A model generated the notes under the pieces. The model was not told the DNA's origin. It saw only the letters and a list, made by a program, of their open reading frames with translations, and made no database searches. From the IMG/VR virus record IMGVR_UViG_3300026510_000015, positions 1 to 24,004 of that record: DNA of 24,004 nt; one strand, given 5' to 3'. Within the stretch, counting starts at the first letter, position 1, and each line of letters starts with the position of its first letter. Shown here one piece after another: positions 4,007 to 16,017 of the stretch. This stretch comes from a virus. The position numbers and the translations under genes are program-made.

Positions 4007-4732
4007 ATGTTAGAAAAATTATTCGAAACATTAGATGAAAAAGTTTTTACTTCTGAAGTTAAAGAAGACTTACAAAGTCAATTTAATGAAGCTGTTGAGG
4101 TTAAAGCCCTTGAAGTAGCAGCTGAAAAAATGGAAGAAAAAATTTCAGATTTAGAGGAAAAATCAGAAGAATATAAGGCAATTTTAGAGCAAGAATATGA
4201 TGAAAAATCAAAAACTCTTTTTGAGCAAGTAGATGCATATCTTGAAAAAGTTGTTGATGATTTTATTGAGGATTCAAAAGGTGCTCTTGATGAGTCAATT
4301 AAATCAGAAAAAGCTGATATGATTATTGAGGCTATGCAATCAATGTTAATTTCAACAGGTGTTGAAATAGCAAAAATTGAAGAAGCTAAAAATTCATCAG
4401 AGCCGGAATTTCAACTTCAAGAAATGACTGCAAAATATGATGCTATAATTGAAGAAAACATTAAACTTGAAAAAGCTAATGAAAAACTTTTAAAAATGGG
4501 TATTATATCTGAGTTAAAAGAAGGTATGAATGTAGTAGAAGGTGAGAAGTTTGAGAAATTAGCAGATCTTGTTGATTTTGAAAATTCAGAGTCTTATCTA
4601 AATAAGCTTATCACAATCAAGGAAAATATTAAAGTTCCTGCAAAGATTGAAGAAAAGCAAGAAGAAAAACAAGAAGAAAATCTTGATGAAAAAACTGAAC
4701 CTAAAGATATATCTTTTGGTCACTTAATTTAA
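4007..4732 (+). CDS. 22: prohead scaffolding core protein, gp22
   Basis: A 241-aa highly charged, largely helical protein, close to T4 gp22 (269 aa) in size, character and place between protease and capsid. The opening, MLEKLFETLDEKVFTSEVKEDLQSQFNEAVEVKA, is typical of gp22 homologs. A long coiled-coil-like stretch covers about residues 20-90, and a second helical block lies at 130-165. The tail has EEKQEEKQEEN repeats and ends in GHLI. In T4 the scaffold fills the prohead and is degraded by gp21. A candidate cleavage site LQE is near residue 137. It is co-transcribed with the capsid gene 15 nt downstream. Confidence 0.87.
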   Translation: MLEKLFETLDEKVFTSEVKEDLQSQFNEAVEVKALEVAAEKMEEKISDLEEKSEEYKAILEQEYDEKSKTLFEQVDAYLEKVVDDFIEDSKGALDESIKSEKADMIIEAMQSMLISTGVEIAKIEEAKNSSEPEFQLQEMTAKYDAIIEENIKLEKANEKLLKMGIISELKEGMNVVEGEKFEKLADLVDFENSESYLNKLITIKENIKVPAKIEEKQEEKQEENLDEKTEPKDISFGHLI

Positions 4733-4747
4733 TATAGGAGAAATAAT

Positions 4748-6109
4748 ATGGATTTAAATGAAAGTATAAACGCACTTATTGAAAGTGAAAAATTTGATAA
4801 ATTAGATGTTCCTGAAGCATCTTATATGAAGATGATGTTGGAGAATGCTCATAAAGAACATGAAATGGCATTATCAGAGGGAACTGTTTCTGGAGATATA
4901 GCAATATTTACTCCAATCATAATGCCTTTAGTTAGAAGAGTTATACCTAACCTTATAGCTAATGAAGTTCTTGGTGTACAACCAATGGCTCTACCAACTG
5001 GTTTTATTTACGCTCTTGTAAATAGATATATAGGAAGTAAAGAGCAACCAGTTAAACCAACAGCTAATGGACAAATTCTTGTTCTTAATGATCTTACTGG
5101 TGTTGATCTTGATTCTATAATCACAGATAGTGCTGGTAGTAAAGGTGATGTTCAATATATCGAACCAGATGATGTTGCTGATCTTACAAAAGGTGGAAAA
5201 GTTCTTGTTAATCTTGAATCAATTCCTCTAGTAGTTGGTGCTACATCAGTTGGTACAATAAATATAGATGCTGTTTTTACAAACGAATTAGCATTTTATC
5301 AAGTTCTTAAAAATTACACTGGTTCAATGACAACTGCAGAAGCAGAGGTTCTTGGAACAAAAATGAACGAAGTTGGTTTTGATATTGCTAGAAAAAGTGT
5401 TGAAGCTAGATCAAGAGCACTTAAAGGTAGATATTCAGTAGAAATGTACCAAGACTTAAAATCTCAACATGGTCTTGCTGCAGATCAAGAATTAATGAAC
5501 CTTATAGGTTATGAAATTCATGCAGAACTAGATAGAGAAATAGTTAATTTTGTTAACAAAAATGCTACACAAGTTGCAAATGCATTCAAACCTGCTGCAG
5601 CAGATGGTAGATGGGAAATAGAAAAATATAGAGCTGAAGTTATCAAAATGAAAAGAGAATCAACTCAAATTGGTTTAGAAACTAAAAGAGGTAAAGCAAA
5701 TGTAATGATTGTTTCACCTAGTACAGCTACAATGCTTCAAGAAGTTGGCTCATTCAAAATAGCAACTCAAGCAAGTGGAACTAATGCGCCAGTATCTGGT
5801 GGTGTTGCTGGAACATTTGATAATCAATTTAAGGTAATTGTTGATCAATTCAGTGCTTCTAACTATTGTACAATGCTTTATAAAGGTGCTGATAAAAGAG
5901 ATGGTATGGGATTCTTTTCTCCATATGTACCATTAAGCTTCACTAAAGTTACTGACCCTGAAAGTGGACAACCAGCAATCATAGCAAAAACAAGATATGC
6001 TTTGGAAACTACTCCTGGTGTTGAAAATGCAATAAGTAATGATAGAGCAAAAACTTATGCTAGATCATTTGGTATAGATTTCACAGGAACTGCACTAGCA
6101 AATTTCTAA
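4748..6109 (+). CDS. 23: major capsid protein, gp23
   Basis: A 453-aa protein of the T4 gp23 family (HK97 fold). The diagnostic block GDIAIFTPIIMPLVRRVIPNL is at about 49-69 and GVQPMALPTGFIYALVNRY follows at 76-94. Further on are DRWEIEKYR-like and ANVMIVSPSTATML segments and a C-terminal GFFSPYVPL/ TRYALETTPGVENA region, all typical. T4 gp23 is 521 aa, so this is a compact version. A gp21-type cleavage site, LSE-Gly, is at residues 42-45, which would release a 44-residue propeptide (65 in T4). The Shine-Dalgarno is AGGAG. A strong hairpin follows the stop codon. No separate gp24 vertex gene lies nearby. Confidence 0.95.
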   Translation: MDLNESINALIESEKFDKLDVPEASYMKMMLENAHKEHEMALSEGTVSGDIAIFTPIIMPLVRRVIPNLIANEVLGVQPMALPTGFIYALVNRYIGSKEQPVKPTANGQILVLNDLTGVDLDSIITDSAGSKGDVQYIEPDDVADLTKGGKVLVNLESIPLVVGATSVGTINIDAVFTNELAFYQVLKNYTGSMTTAEAEVLGTKMNEVGFDIARKSVEARSRALKGRYSVEMYQDLKSQHGLAADQELMNLIGYEIHAELDREIVNFVNKNATQVANAFKPAAADGRWEIEKYRAEVIKMKRESTQIGLETKRGKANVMIVSPSTATMLQEVGSFKIATQASGTNAPVSGGVAGTFDNQFKVIVDQFSASNYCTMLYKGADKRDGMGFFSPYVPLSFTKVTDPESGQPAIIAKTRYALETTPGVENAISNDRAKTYARSFGIDFTGTALANF

Positions 6110-6131
6110 GAAATATTATACTATAATATAT

Positions 6132-6154
6132 TTGGAGGTCTTTAAGACCTCCAA
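6132..6154 (+). terminator. strong hairpin after the capsid gene, probable transcription end or mRNA-stabilising stem
   Basis: TTGGAGGTC (6132-6140), a 5-nt loop TTTAA and GACCTCCAA (6146-6154) form a perfect 9-bp stem, 23 nt after the capsid stop. The sequence after it (TAAAATAAG) has no clean T-run. Termination is therefore plausible but not proven, and protection of the capsid mRNA 3' end is an alternative. Confidence 0.6.
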
Positions 6155-6168
6155 TAAAATAAGAGAAT

Positions 6169-6226
6169 AAAAATAAGTAGATGCTCTGTGGTTAGTTTCA
6201 TCTACTTATTTTTGTTAAACTAACCA
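6169..6226 (+). promoter_or_regulatory. two interlocked inverted repeats: terminator, pseudoknot or attenuator-like element
   Basis: Stem A pairs 6169-6183 with 6199-6213, 15 bp without mismatch, around a 15-nt loop. Its 3' arm ends in TTATTTTTG, like a terminator. Ten bases of that loop (TGGTTAGTTT, 6189-6198) are perfectly complementary to 6217-6226 (AAACTAACCA), giving stem B. Only 3 nt separate the end of stem A from stem B, too few to span a full 15-bp helix. The two stems should therefore compete, or stem A must open in part. The element lies 15 nt before the ribosome site of the homing endonuclease gene. Confidence 0.65.
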
Positions 6227-6248
6227 ACTCTTATTATATAGGAGTACT

Positions 6249-7955
6249 TTGAAAATAAACTACCGATATACAAAATATAATCCTCCATTTTTTACTCAAA
6301 AAAAGCAATTTAAAAGATTAAAAATACAGATGTATGCATGGTATCTTTTACATGAATACAATGAAGATATTTGTTTAGATTTTCTTGCAAAATATATATC
6401 CAAATTAAAACTTATTCTTGATAAAAATTTTAGAGAACTTAAAAAATATGCAAATTCAATTTATCCATTTGAAAATGATTATAGTCTTTTAAGAAAATTA
6501 ATCTTAAATAATGGAAAATTATGTGAACATTGTTTTGGTCCATCTTATAAAGGATATAAGTATTGCTCACAAAAATGTTCTAGTACAGTTGTAAATACTA
6601 AAAGAATAGATTATCCAAGAGGATATAAATTGTCTGATGAGACTAAACAAAAAATATCAAATTCTGTAAAATTTTACTTAAATTCACTATCTAGCGAACA
6701 ACGGGATTACTTAAAGGTTTCAGGAAAACCTAGAGGACCAGGAAAACTTAACTTAAATATAGAAGGTATTAAACTTCAAGAATACAAAGGAACTCTAAAT
6801 ACTGTAAGAGTTATATGTAAAAAACATGGAGATTTAGGATATATGAATTATACAAATGTTGTATATTCAGGAGCTAAAGAAAAAATTTGTGAAAAATGTT
6901 TCATAGATATGTTAAAACTTCAAAGAATTAAAGATATAAGCAAAGTTTGTGATAAGAGAAATATACAATTCGTAGATATAGTAGATAAATATACAATTTT
7001 ACTTAAATGCAAAAAGCATGGAAACTTCACAACATCACTTAAAAATTTTTTACAACACGAAACTGGATGTCCAAAATGTTCAAATAATACATCAAAAGCT
7101 GAATTAGAAATTAATAAAATTGTTAATGGAATTCAAAATGATAGAACTTTGATTAAACCACTTGAAATTGATGTTTTATCAACAGAATATAAATTTGGTA
7201 TTGAATATGATGGAATTATGTTTCATAGTGAGGGAATACATAAGTCCGCAATGTTCAATAAACTCAATGATCTAAGAAATAATCATTTACATAAGACTGA
7301 ACTTTGTGAAGAAAAAGGATATCAGTTATTTCATATTTTTGACAATGAATGGCTTAATCCAGATAAACAAGAGATATGGAAGTCCATAATCAGAAATAAA
7401 ATGGGACAAAATACTAGAATTGGTGCTAGAAAATGTTCTGTTAAAGAGGTATCTAGTAAAGAAACAAGGAAATTTCTTAATGAAAATCATCTTCAGGGAT
7501 ATGCTACCAGTTCAGTAAATATAGGGCTGTACTATAATAATGATTTGATTCAAATAATGACATTTTCTAAGGTTCAAAATATATATGAGATGGTTAGATT
7601 ATGTTCTAAGATAAATTTTTCAGTTCAAGGAGGTGCTAGTAGATTACTTAAGCATTTTGAGAGAAATTACAATCCTAAGAGTTTAGTTAGTTATGCTAAT
7701 AGAAGATGGTCAGAAGGTAATTTATATTTGAAATTAGGATTCGGGTTAAATCATATATCTAGTCCTGATTATTTCTACTTTTTACCTAATAAATATATAT
7801 TGGAATCAAGAAATAAATTTCAAAAACATAAATTATCAAAATTACTAGAAATATACGATCCCAATCTAACAGAAGTTCAAAATATGTTTAATAATGGATA
7901 TAGACGAATTTGGGATTGTGGGAATTATGTATTTGTAAAAGAATATACTATGTAA
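6249..7955 (+). CDS. free-standing homing endonuclease, Vsr-like nuclease with zinc-finger clusters
   Basis: A 568-aa protein. The N-terminal half has three Cys/His clusters suited to zinc binding: C92-C95-C106-C110, C190-H193-C214-C217 and C254-H257-C274-C277. The nuclease core (about 285-385) reads LEIDVL, KFGIEYDGIMFHSE, HLHKTELCEEKGYQLFHIFDNEW, matching the Vsr-like (EDxHD-type) homing endonucleases of phages. Candidate catalytic residues are Glu306/Asp308, Glu319, His326 and His346. The C-terminal domain (about 390-568; NENHLQGYATSSVNIGLYY, ending RIWDCGNYVF) is the usual partner of this nuclease in phage genomes. The start is TTG at 6249 with GGAG at 6241-6244. It sits alone between capsid and tail genes, as invading free-standing nucleases often do. 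Its target site is unknown, and it probably spreads by cutting phages that lack it. Confidence 0.85.
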   Translation: MKINYRYTKYNPPFFTQKKQFKRLKIQMYAWYLLHEYNEDICLDFLAKYISKLKLILDKNFRELKKYANSIYPFENDYSLLRKLILNNGKLCEHCFGPSYKGYKYCSQKCSSTVVNTKRIDYPRGYKLSDETKQKISNSVKFYLNSLSSEQRDYLKVSGKPRGPGKLNLNIEGIKLQEYKGTLNTVRVICKKHGDLGYMNYTNVVYSGAKEKICEKCFIDMLKLQRIKDISKVCDKRNIQFVDIVDKYTILLKCKKHGNFTTSLKNFLQHETGCPKCSNNTSKAELEINKIVNGIQNDRTLIKPLEIDVLSTEYKFGIEYDGIMFHSEGIHKSAMFNKLNDLRNNHLHKTELCEEKGYQLFHIFDNEWLNPDKQEIWKSIIRNKMGQNTRIGARKCSVKEVSSKETRKFLNENHLQGYATSSVNIGLYYNNDLIQIMTFSKVQNIYEMVRLCSKINFSVQGGASRLLKHFERNYNPKSLVSYANRRWSEGNLYLKLGFGLNHISSPDYFYFLPNKYILESRNKFQKHKLSKLLEIYDPNLTEVQNMFNNGYRRIWDCGNYVFVKEYTM

Positions 7956-7971
7956 TAGGTTCCTTATATTA

Positions 7972-7979
7972 TATAAATA
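7972..7979 (+). promoter_or_regulatory. T4-type late promoter, -10 box
   Basis: TATAAATA followed by CTATAAAAGAGG, in the 41-nt gap after the endonuclease gene. The AGAGG at 7987-7991 is the ribosome site for the TTG start at 7997. The 20-bp promoter plus ribosome-site block is identical to the one at 20079. Confidence 0.85.
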
Positions 7980-7996
7980 CTATAAAAGAGGTTCTT

Positions 7997-8563
7997 TTGA
8001 AATTAAATGATGTAATAAACAAAGTTCAAAATATTAATTGGACCAAAATAAATAATTTCAGTATTATATTAATGCCTAATGACTTACAATTCTCAAGTCT
8101 TATAAATTGGGATAGAGGTAGTGAATTTAATGATACTCTGAACACTGCTTTGGTAAGCATTGAAACCCCAGCATATACTGCAGCCGAAGTTTCAACATTT
8201 GTGGGAAATACTTGGAGATACCATCAAGGTAGAGATGAGTTATTCAAATTTCAACTAACATTTAGAGATTATAATCAAATGGCATTATATACATTATTCA
8301 GAAATGCTTATGAAAAATCAAAGGATCAATATGCAGATAGAGTAAAATTTCAATTAAAAATATTTTCAGATGCTGATAAAAATGTGCAACAAAAAAATAT
8401 TTTAGAGATAGATGATGCTATATTAATAAATGTTTCGCAAGTACAATTTTCTCATAAAACAGAGAATGAAATAGCAGAATTTAATGTTCAGTTTATGTCA
8501 AACCCTCCTAAACATCCTAACGGATTTATTTTAGGAACTCCAACAATTGCGATGATTAAATAA
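7997..8563 (+). CDS. tube-fold baseplate or tail-tube junction protein (gp54-like candidate)
   Basis: A 188-aa protein starting at TTG 7997. An upstream ATG at 7910 is in frame but overlaps the endonuclease gene and lacks a ribosome site, whereas the TTG lies 5 nt after AGAGG and downstream of the late promoter. The pattern follows the tail-tube fold: SIETPAYTAAEVSTFVGNTWRYHQGRDELFKFQLTF, a helix YNQMALYTLFRNAYE, then IDDAILINVSQVQFSHKTENEIAEFNVQFMSNPP, parallel to the gp19 copies at the left. T4 gp54 and gp48 use this fold to join hub and tube. It lacks the extra domain of T4 gp54 (320 aa). Being first in the tail block and upstream of the tape measure fits a junction ring. It could equally be a fourth tube-type ring. 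Confidence 0.55.
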   Translation: MKLNDVINKVQNINWTKINNFSIILMPNDLQFSSLINWDRGSEFNDTLNTALVSIETPAYTAAEVSTFVGNTWRYHQGRDELFKFQLTFRDYNQMALYTLFRNAYEKSKDQYADRVKFQLKIFSDADKNVQQKNILEIDDAILINVSQVQFSHKTENEIAEFNVQFMSNPPKHPNGFILGTPTIAMIK

Positions 8564-14052: not shown

Positions 14053-15184
14053 TTCAGTAGAGTCGGTAAATCAATCATCATCAATATATAATATAAGTAT
14101 AACTATCAATGATTTTTCAATTGATAAAGAATTAATTCAAGACTACGCTGTTAATTGGGAAGGATTTAGTATATATGGGCACTTAGTCATAAATGACATT
14201 TATGATATTATCAATACTACTGATCTTAAACCAAATGATGAGATTGTAATATCATATACTGATGTTTATGATAAATTATTTGCTAGAAATTATAATATAG
14301 TTTCAACTTATGAAAAATTTGAGCAAGATTCTAAATTATTGAGAATAAATTTTAGAGATGTTATATCATCAAAACTAGAGCGAATTTATATTGATAAATC
14401 TTACGAAGAAACTAAATTATCAGAAGTATTTACTGAATATTTTAATAAATATGCTGCTCCATTAATATCAGGATATCCTATAAATTTACATTTTGAAAAT
14501 ACAACAGAATTAAGACACAAATATTGTATTCCTAAAGATAGAAATTTTTTAGAATTTATAAATTTAGAACTTTATAAGGAAGGATATTTTTTATATCAAG
14601 ATAAACAAGATATATACTTAACAAAGGGTGTAACAGTACCTGAGCATAATTATCCTTACAAACAAGTTCCTCCTCATGATGTATATGGGTTTAACATAAT
14701 TAGCTATAGATTAAAATTTAATAATTTAGAAAATAAAGAAATTCCAAGAAGTAAGTTTTTTGTTTATAATCCAGCTGGAAAAACTATGGACCATTATGAT
14801 GAAACCTTTAGCTCTTACAAAGAACGTCTTAAAATTGTTAAAAATAATATTACAGATGAACAAGAATTTGAAGTCACTGAAAAATTTAGAACTCAAGAGT
14901 ATTTAGTAGATAATACATATTTTTATTATTATCCACATATGAATAATAGTATTCTTGAAATAGTTGTTCCCGGAAATATAGAGTACTCAAAAATTTATAG
15001 AATTATGCAAGTTGACATGGCGGGAAATAGAAATTCATTAACTTCACAAAAAACTGGTAATATAAAACTTTCGGGAAAATATAAGTGTTTTAGAGTACAA
15101 GATAAACTAGTAAATGGAAAACGATTTATTCAAAAATTATTTCTTTATAGAGTTGAAGAAACACCTGATATATTTAAGAAATGA
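14045..15184 (+). CDS. 27: baseplate hub protein, gp27-like
   Basis: A 379-aa protein, close to T4 gp27 (391 aa) in length and placed directly before the gp5 spike gene. The opening ISITINDFSIDKELIQDYAVNWEGFSIYGHLVINDIYDII and the strand pattern NDEIVISYTDVYDKLFARNYNIVSTYEK resemble the tube-like domain found in gp27/gpD hub proteins. The middle (CIPKDRNFLEFINLELYKEGYFLYQDKQDIYL) is the region these proteins use around gp5. In T4, three gp27 copies form a ring adapting the hexameric tube to the trimeric spike. AAAGGA (14035-14040) precedes the ATG. The stop TGA lies inside the first unit of the 19-bp repeat array and overlaps an ATG. Confidence 0.78.
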   Translation: MSSSVESVNQSSSIYNISITINDFSIDKELIQDYAVNWEGFSIYGHLVINDIYDIINTTDLKPNDEIVISYTDVYDKLFARNYNIVSTYEKFEQDSKLLRINFRDVISSKLERIYIDKSYEETKLSEVFTEYFNKYAAPLISGYPINLHFENTTELRHKYCIPKDRNFLEFINLELYKEGYFLYQDKQDIYLTKGVTVPEHNYPYKQVPPHDVYGFNIISYRLKFNNLENKEIPRSKFFVYNPAGKTMDHYDETFSSYKERLKIVKNNITDEQEFEVTEKFRTQEYLVDNTYFYYYPHMNNSILEIVVPGNIEYSKIYRIMQVDMAGNRNSLTSQKTGNIKLSGKYKCFRVQDKLVNGKRFIQKLFLYRVEETPDIFKK

Positions 15185-15300
15185 AAATATATTTAAGAAA
15201 TGAAAATATATTTAAGAAATGAAAATATATTTAAGAAATGAAAATATATTTAAGAAATGAAAATATATTTAAGAAATGAAAATATATTTAAGAAAGGCAA
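15168..15300 (+). repeat. seven-copy 19-bp tandem array joining gp27 and gp5, with a chain of mini-ORFs
   Basis: Seven head-to-tail units of ATATATTTAAGAAATGAAA fill 15168-15300 exactly (133 nt). Units 1-6 are identical. Unit 7 differs at two bases, turning ATGA into AGGC and creating the AAAGG ribosome site of gp5. Unit 1 encodes the last gp27 residues and stop, so the array seems to have grown from the gene end. Each ATG opens a 13-codon frame, MKIYLRNENIFKK, whose TGA overlaps the ATG two units on. From the gp27 stop the chain runs 15181-15222, 15219-15260, 15257-15307, and its last stop overlaps the gp5 ATG at 15304. Confidence 0.95.
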
Positions 15301-15303
15301 AAA

Positions 15304-16017
15304 ATGAAATTATATAGAGGTATTGTAACAAATAATAAAAATCCAAAATCAAATGATTCTCCAACAAGAGATGGAAGAGTACAAGTAAGATTATTTGAAA
15401 TACACGGACCAAATGTTAAAGATAAAGAATTACCTTGGGCAGAAGTTATGCAAGGAATAGATTATATAGGGTTTTTTGATGGTCCAAAAAATATTACTGC
15501 GCCATATGATTATAATGCTTCAAATAAAGGAGAAACACCATCTCCTGATCCAAAAATAGGGTATGGAAAAAATACTATTATAGAAATTGGAACATGGGTG
15601 TTTTGTTTATTAGATCATGATAATCCAAATATGCCTATTGTTATAGGAACAATAGCATCTCATAATGAAATAAATGAATTTTCTAATCCCAAAAATCAAG
15701 TAACTAGAACAGTTTCTGGTCATATGGTAGAATTTGATGATAATGATGGAAATGAAAGGATACATATTCATCATAAATCAGGAACAGATATTGAAATAGG
15801 ACCAGATGGCACTGTAACAATTGTTAATGTAAAAGATGTATTTATGCATACTTATGGTGAACAAAAGGAAACCATCGATGGTAATGAAACTAGACTTATA
15901 AAAGGTAATATTGATGAAACATCAAATGGAACTTGTACTGAATTGTATAAAGGTACTCAACACACAACTTCAAATACACATATAAAACTCAATGCTCCTA
16001 GGATTGACTTAAATTAG
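15304..16017 (+). CDS. 5: baseplate central spike, gp5-like without lysozyme
   Basis: A 237-aa spike protein. Residues 1-115 form the gp5/VgrG OB-fold: YRGIVTNNK, DGRVQVRLFEIHG, LPWAEVMQG, WVFCLLDHDNPNMPIVIGTIAS. Residues 130-237 (VSGHMVEFDDNDGNERIHIHHKSGTDIEIGPDGTVTIVN, then short repeats with NGT and GNI) are the start and body of the trimeric beta-helix needle. T4 gp5 has 575 aa because a lysozyme domain is inserted between these parts. Here the two join directly, so cell-wall cleavage must come from another protein. The needle is also short. The ATG at 15304 has AAAGG 6 nt upstream and overlaps the stop of the last mini-ORF of the repeat array. Confidence 0.87.
   Translation: MKLYRGIVTNNKNPKSNDSPTRDGRVQVRLFEIHGPNVKDKELPWAEVMQGIDYIGFFDGPKNITAPYDYNASNKGETPSPDPKIGYGKNTIIEIGTWVFCLLDHDNPNMPIVIGTIASHNEINEFSNPKNQVTRTVSGHMVEFDDNDGNERIHIHHKSGTDIEIGPDGTVTIVNVKDVFMHTYGEQKETIDGNETRLIKGNIDETSNGTCTELYKGTQHTTSNTHIKLNAPRIDLN

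Follow-up and report, generated by a model that had tools for sequence, protein, structure and literature searches.

Interlocked RNA helices in the leaders of homing endonuclease genes of T4-like phages form a probable translational switch

The window analyzed here is a stretch of 24,004 nucleotides that makes up positions 1 to 24,004 of the 24-kb IMG/VR virus contig IMGVR_UViG_3300026510_000015. It contains a major capsid protein gene, gp23, whose nearest named relatives are those of Vibrio phiKT1024-type phages (57%) and of Campylobacter Firehammervirus (about 45%), and downstream from it a homing endonuclease gene. Between the two lies the element studied here, made of two interlocked helices (A and B), an outer helix (O), and a hairpin (S) that contains the Shine-Dalgarno (SD) sequence. 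The features of the locus are as follows:

4748–6109, + strand: gp23, the major capsid protein gene, neighbor upstream of the element (Pfam PF07068, E=2.1e-98)
6132–6154, + strand: hairpin TTGGAGGTC...GACCTCCAA, on the 3' side of gp23 and separate from the element (from sequence)
6158–6165, + strand: O5, AATAAGAG, the 5' strand of the outer helix and a near-copy of the SD strand (anti-anti-SD; from sequence)
6166–6183, + strand: A5, the 5' arm of stem A, 18 bp (inverted-repeat search; covariation)
6184–6188, + strand: L1, CTCTG, with a near-invariant CTC (49 of 50 copies have it among the first 11 nt of their loop)
6189–6198, + strand: B5, the 5' arm of stem B, within the loop of stem A (inverted-repeat search; covariation)
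6199–6216, + strand: A3, the 3' arm of stem A (inverted-repeat search; covariation)
6217–6226, + strand: B3, the 3' arm of stem B, abutting A3 (inverted-repeat search; covariation)
6227–6245, + strand: S hairpin, ACTCTTAT-TAT-ATAGGAGT, containing the Shine-Dalgarno AGGAG at 6240–6244 (from sequence)
6228–6235, + strand: O3, the anti-SD strand CTCTTATT, whose partner is either O5 or, with pairing from 6227, the SD strand (from sequence)
6249–7955, + strand: homing endonuclease open reading frame (ORF) of 568 aa with a TTG start at 6249 (phrog_3339, "homing endonuclease," E=1.2e-104; phrog_559, E=3.3e-105; Pfam DUF723)

On the + strand, the hairpin at 6132–6154 is not followed by a T run; hairpins matching it, often with CTTCGG loops, were found after gp23 in many relatives. 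The flank of the capsid gene is also a recurrent home of homing endonuclease genes, which differ there in orientation and family (the window; L005; L011; L154; NCTC12673, L028 15299–16606; and T4 segD, L609 6561–7232).

Stem A (6166–6183/6199–6216; 18 nt, 94% complementary) consists of 17 Watson-Crick pairs and one U-G pair (6168/6214), and stem B (6189–6198/6217–6226; 10 nt) is 100% complementary. A preliminary description of this DNA had reported a perfect 15-bp stem at 6169–6183/6199–6213, the loop of which was complementary over 10 bases to sequence 3 nt past the stem. Both pairings are real, the first as the inner part of stem A and the second as stem B; the 3 nt taken for a gap instead belong to the three outermost pairs of the longer stem A, and the linker between A3 and B3 is 0 nt. 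Because there is no linker, full A and full B cannot coexist in one molecule, as had been argued. The summed score of A pairs plus B is 27, compared with at most 17 in 200 dinucleotide shuffles of the surrounding 260 nt and at most 19 in ten shuffles of the whole 24-kb window, and the RNA fold of 6150–6250 (–30.3 kcal/mol, z=–6.07) was equaled in none of 200 shuffles. Elsewhere in the window, tandem AAATATATTTAAGAAATG-like units at 15185–15290, between ORFs ending at 15184 and starting at 15304, give a false interlocked-repeat score.

The viral contigs L001, L004, and L011, which carry related gp23 genes, have the same plan directly 3' of gp23 in different bases. Further copies came from searches with gp23 and endonuclease alignments and from a scan for interlocked repeats; a pattern search of whole contigs yielded several copies per contig, and a second pattern that included the late promoter led to a set of 50 distinct copies in viral contigs, at least five of them on the 81.7-kb contig G042. 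The parser that defined these 50 demanded an exactly complementary stem B and the anchors AAGAG and CTC[TC]T[AG], so that the perfect pairing of B, the anti-SD core, and the AAGAG (whose presence in O5 is thus not independent) are partly products of selection. Features beyond what the parser selected are the promoter spacing of 6–9 nt, the loop CTC (49 of 50 copies), the direct abutment of A3 and B3 (37 of 50), and the SD hairpin. One extra copy, L545, precedes a GIY-YIG-like gene on a 4-kb contig, presumably a phage fragment, in a metagenome-assembled genome (MAG) labeled Cloacimonadota; bacterial and archaeal genomes gave at least 118 pattern matches, and among the matches listed L545 was the one true copy. 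Several candidates were rejected: L554 looks alike, but precedes an unrelated membrane-protein-like ORF without a late promoter; L124, which scored in the gp23-locus scan, has only 9 pairs in 13 in stem A and overlaps the gp23 hairpin; and the patterns ATATAAGAGAT...CTCTTATAT and the ATAAGTAGAT hairpin pattern gave mostly chance matches (L192 is an ordinary hairpin).

A CAAGAG variant of the pattern added 0 new copies after parsing. The signature is absent from Campylobacter NCTC12673 and CP220, from Vibrio phiKT1024, and from bases 1–150000 of the 168,903-base T4 record; the endonucleases after gp23 in NCTC12673 are without the element, and a nucleotide similarity search of named phages returned weak chance matches only. 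A search of the window against Rfam gave no match, and around the element every match by E-value scored below the gathering cut-off. The leader is apparently undescribed so far: searches of Rfam and of the open-access literature, which covers a minority of subscription journals, returned no earlier description of such a leader, so that its novelty is likely rather than certain. A second type of leader, with few copies, precedes endonuclease genes in L005 (5386), L149 (1483), L056 (60), and L062 (start near 600–700), and L088 (814) and L087 may belong to it; here stem A is long (19–26 bp in most) and its loop pairs, after a linker, with the Shine-Dalgarno segment itself. In L005, L149, L056, and L062, the linker is longer, the SD is B3, and the outer helix is missing. 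As separate observations, L239 (contig G007) has an identical 26-bp stem A at 4191 and 5352, ∼1.2 kb apart, with B3 matches of 7 versus 11 bases, and at L029 825–880 (NCTC12673, about 100825–100880) inverted repeats of 11 and 12 bp interlock within a region of overlapping coding sequences that adjoins no endonuclease gene.

Across the copies, the shape of the interlocked helices is strongly conserved and their sequence almost never. The 50 copies have 50 distinct A5 sequences and 48 distinct B5 sequences; stem A is near-perfect over 14–21 bp, and at most of its positions nearly all four Watson-Crick types are represented. We measured covariation in an ungapped alignment of the 11 copies with identical spacing, using all 10 columns of B and allowing mismatches. 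In this alignment 97.7% of cells are paired, and 26 of 28 pairs have changed on both sides (18 of 18 in A, 8 of 10 in B); the compensatory changes in relatives that the preliminary description had called for are thus abundant. The covariation score is 0.851, versus 0.254 in shuffles (0 of 500), a contrast that is inflated by relatedness, and at most 0.114 in slid registers, controls that retain relatedness. The loop of one stem therefore pairs beyond that stem, with covariation for both helices, as in an H-type pseudoknot, and full A plus full B would need the base of A to be opened. In many copies starting with AU, the second pair of stem A from its base is often U-G, U-C, or U-U, as if the base were kept weak. 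Where stem A contains a single non-Watson-Crick pair, this is G-U in 13 copies and A-C in 2; the parser allowed any number of G-U pairs and one mismatch, and both kinds were equally tolerated in this subset. This ratio is the reverse of that expected for an antisense RNA, and points to RNA of the coding strand as the functional form.

A T4-type late promoter, TATAAATA, lies 6–9 nt upstream of AAGAG in 44 of the 50 copies, the search having permitted 3–16 nt, and is also found in copies collected with a promoter-free pattern. Six copies, including that of the window, have none at the expected place; since no late promoter is visible there, the window copy is probably transcribed by readthrough from gp23. 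On contig G042 (82 kb), the element occurs at 5 of 31 TATAAATA sites, each before an endonuclease-type ORF. Most copies lie away from gp23 and have their own late promoter, which speaks against the earlier notion of the element as a link between capsid transcription and the endonuclease.

Every copy with a readable downstream gene precedes a homing endonuclease gene, an endonuclease-like gene, or a remnant of one, and the co-occurrence proposed as a check, that the element travels with homing endonuclease genes, was borne out. As judged by PHROG, Pfam, and motifs read directly, the downstream genes are of the GIY-YIG, HNH (HHILP), and Vsr-like/DUF723 kinds, often with NUMOD3; GIY-YIG, HNH, and Vsr-like proteins have unrelated folds and here share one leader. 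The ORFs after L230 and after L312 (at 7302) match PHROGs of unknown function only and are endonuclease-like by association, as PHROG 5104 is common to both and to L276, which also matches homing endonucleases. The genes after copies L202, L203, L302, and L232 (at 6032) are broken, and contig L001 ends before its downstream gene can be judged. In L011, the leader is followed by a 52-aa ORF and then by a 960-aa ORF (5667–8549) in which two Vsr-like homing endonucleases are fused via PKPILKVNV repeats. The gp23 loci without a downstream endonuclease match have no convincing element, barring L004, L149, and L152, where the gene that follows either encodes a different kind of endonuclease or is cut short. 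Among endonucleases adjoining gp23 in the same data set a minority have the element, which is therefore not required.

Outside the knot there are three further strands, generally an upstream O5 UAUAAGAG, an anti-SD CUCUUAUA, and an SD strand UAUAGGAG; the outer helix and the SD hairpin that they form were absent from the preliminary description. The anti-SD is able to pair with either of the other two, and in every one of the 50 copies these pairings share 3 nt or more. In the window the outer helix is 6158–6165/6228–6235, and the S hairpin pairs 6227–6234 with the SD strand ATAGGAGT at 6238–6245. Under a strict rule, an SD-like triplet lies within the 3' arm of S in 46 of 50 copies. The bases before AAGAG change together with O3 (AUAAGAG/CUCUUAU, ACAAGAG/CUCUUGU).

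We therefore suggest that the element serves as 5' leader to the endonuclease mRNA and, probably, as a translational RNA switch that hides the ribosome-binding site (RBS) and lets through a self-timed pulse. As far as can be read from the sequence, it combines conserved pairing in A and B, overlapping O and S, a place between late promoter and start codon, and linkage to endonucleases. That it acts on translation is very likely, and there is good reason to take O as the ON state and S as the OFF state; a role for the pseudoknot in driving this change over time is suggested only tentatively. Two choices would be involved. In the inner one, A3 would be either fully paired with A5 (the 18-bp hairpin) or paired in its loop-proximal part only, together with the GC-rich stem B, as an H-type pseudoknot. 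In the outer one, the anti-SD CUCUUAUA would sit either on O5 UAUAAGAG, leaving the SD free (ON), or on the SD strand UAUAGGAG, hiding it (OFF). During transcription, A and then the outer helix would be the first to form, and the newly made SD would be briefly free. Later B would invade, the AU-rich base of A would open, and the outer strands would be moved to opposite ends of a rod of ∼21 bp; the outer helix would then fail and the SD hairpin would close the message. In this way a potentially harmful nuclease would be made in a brief burst that times itself.

This order, from A+O (open) to B+S (closed), is proposed on the basis of growing-transcript folds, pseudoknot energy, and stack geometry. 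The geometry of an H-type pseudoknot separates the 5' end of A from the 3' end of B, one at each end of the stack, and would be expected to hinder the outer helix. When growing transcripts were folded with pseudoknots ignored, the outer helix had P > 0.5 in all 50 copies once its 3' strand had emerged, and the SD hairpin exceeded the same value in 42 of 50 by the end. Mean energies over the 50 copies lie near each other, at –25.1 kcal/mol for A+S and –22.5 kcal/mol for A+O; the minimum free energy folds are split between the SD hairpin (28 copies) and the outer helix (21), so that the resting state is uncertain. Nearest-neighbor folding excludes pseudoknots; in a rough estimate with a pseudoknot penalty of 7–9.6 kcal/mol, which like the loop limits is a rough choice, the top of A plus B is favored over full A in 44 of 45 copies. 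By this estimate, the compact pseudoknot with an open base of A that was earlier mentioned as an alternative is energetically favored. GC content rises from 13.5% in the base of A to 30% in its top and 53% in B. Altogether, the element is real, conserved, RNA-level, and linked to endonucleases; translational control is its best reading, and the details of timing are what we infer beyond it.

It could be argued that control is based on the SD hairpin, which is present in nearly all copies and mostly stabler than the outer helix, with I-TevI, segB, and mobE as precedent (PMC2988022). However, this leaves unexplained why B covaries as strongly as A, why linkers are zero in most copies, and why the outer strand repeats the SD strand, and we consider it rather unlikely. 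Very unlikely, in our view, is a role in RNA processing, with RNase III or a phage nuclease cutting duplex A under the control of B and thus freeing the endonuclease mRNA from upstream mRNA. Stem A is indeed a near-perfect duplex of 14–21 bp, and the window copy, which lacks its own promoter, lies downstream from a strongly expressed gene; but in 44 of 50 copies transcription is predicted to start right at the element's edge, which leaves no upstream RNA for a nuclease to remove, and processing accounts for neither O/S nor B. The inverted repeats might also be read as DNA, as a cruciform, recombination end, or operator serving cassette movement or promoter self-control; the element does accompany endonuclease genes of several families, and I-TevI is a known case of operators close to late promoters (PMC2988022). 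Yet the stems differ in 50 of 50 copies, leaving no common sequence for a protein to read, the spacing to the late promoter and the SD is fixed, and sense-strand G-U pairs outnumber A-C 13 to 2, all of which makes a DNA-level site highly improbable. The main reading of the preliminary description, an attenuator in which A terminates transcription and B prevents termination, drew on the T-rich 3' arm of the window copy and is scarcely tenable, as a five-T run at the 3' side of stem A occurs in 1 of 50 copies, that of the window alone, GC-rich B3 directly abuts A, and a terminator scan of the window made no + strand call at the element.

If the leader is a translational switch, it changes a picture in which RNA control of T4-like homing endonucleases was described gene by gene, as hairpins. 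One leader serves unrelated folds and is repeated within a genome, and control therefore seems to be a module picked up by or kept with selfish genes, as opposed to one evolved afresh each time. A bolder version, possible although we would not call it probable, is that of a portable self-timing module: GIY-YIG, HNH, and Vsr-like endonucleases in one group of T4-like phages would have acquired the same late-promoter-plus-leader cassette, several per genome; the change from 18-bp hairpin to pseudoknot would pull the outer helix apart and close the RBS a set time after synthesis, and the stems would diverge against copy recombination or cross-pairing. With only their shape held constant and all else randomized, the ∼50 natural variants lend themselves well to testing how pseudoknots and switches fold. 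Several downstream genes have no Pfam match, and the leader motif plus late promoter is usable to find homing endonucleases missed by protein searches.

Among known systems, HEARO and OMEGA RNAs are likewise structured RNAs that adjoin nuclease genes, those of the IscB/TnpB endonucleases; here, in contrast, there is no Rfam match at the gathering cut-off and the downstream proteins belong to homing endonuclease families. The MS2 maturation gene leader and the hok and aapA3 toxin mRNAs make SD/anti-SD choices by synthesis order, and in MS2 a transient fold lets translation occur before the final fold closes (PMC6733600). A choice of this kind, in synthesis order, is what we propose here from predicted folds, although the genes and folds are others and the interlocked A/B knot is missing there. 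The leader of T4 gene 32 is, like ours, that of a T4-like phage with an H-type pseudoknot, which there affects translation by nucleating gp32 on an unstructured, A+U-rich RBS region (PMC3014915); in our element the RBS is instead in hairpin S, B is GC-rich and much longer, and the gene is not gene 32. The closest known system is that of the T4-type homing endonuclease hairpins: I-TevI, I-TevII, I-TevIII, segB, and Aeh1 mobE have RBS-sequestering hairpins with a late promoter close by, and late transcripts lack the 5' arm, so that the SD escapes (PMC2988022). This agrees with the earlier remark that RNA structure restrains homing endonuclease genes in T4-like phages, and our leader likewise has the SD of an endonuclease gene in an RNA hairpin (6227–6245 in the window; 46 of 50 copies). 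Unlike in those systems, TATAAATA precedes the entire element (44 of 50 copies), so that late RNA would carry the full leader, and one leader, with a second strand competing for the anti-SD and two interlocked helices, serves unrelated nuclease families.
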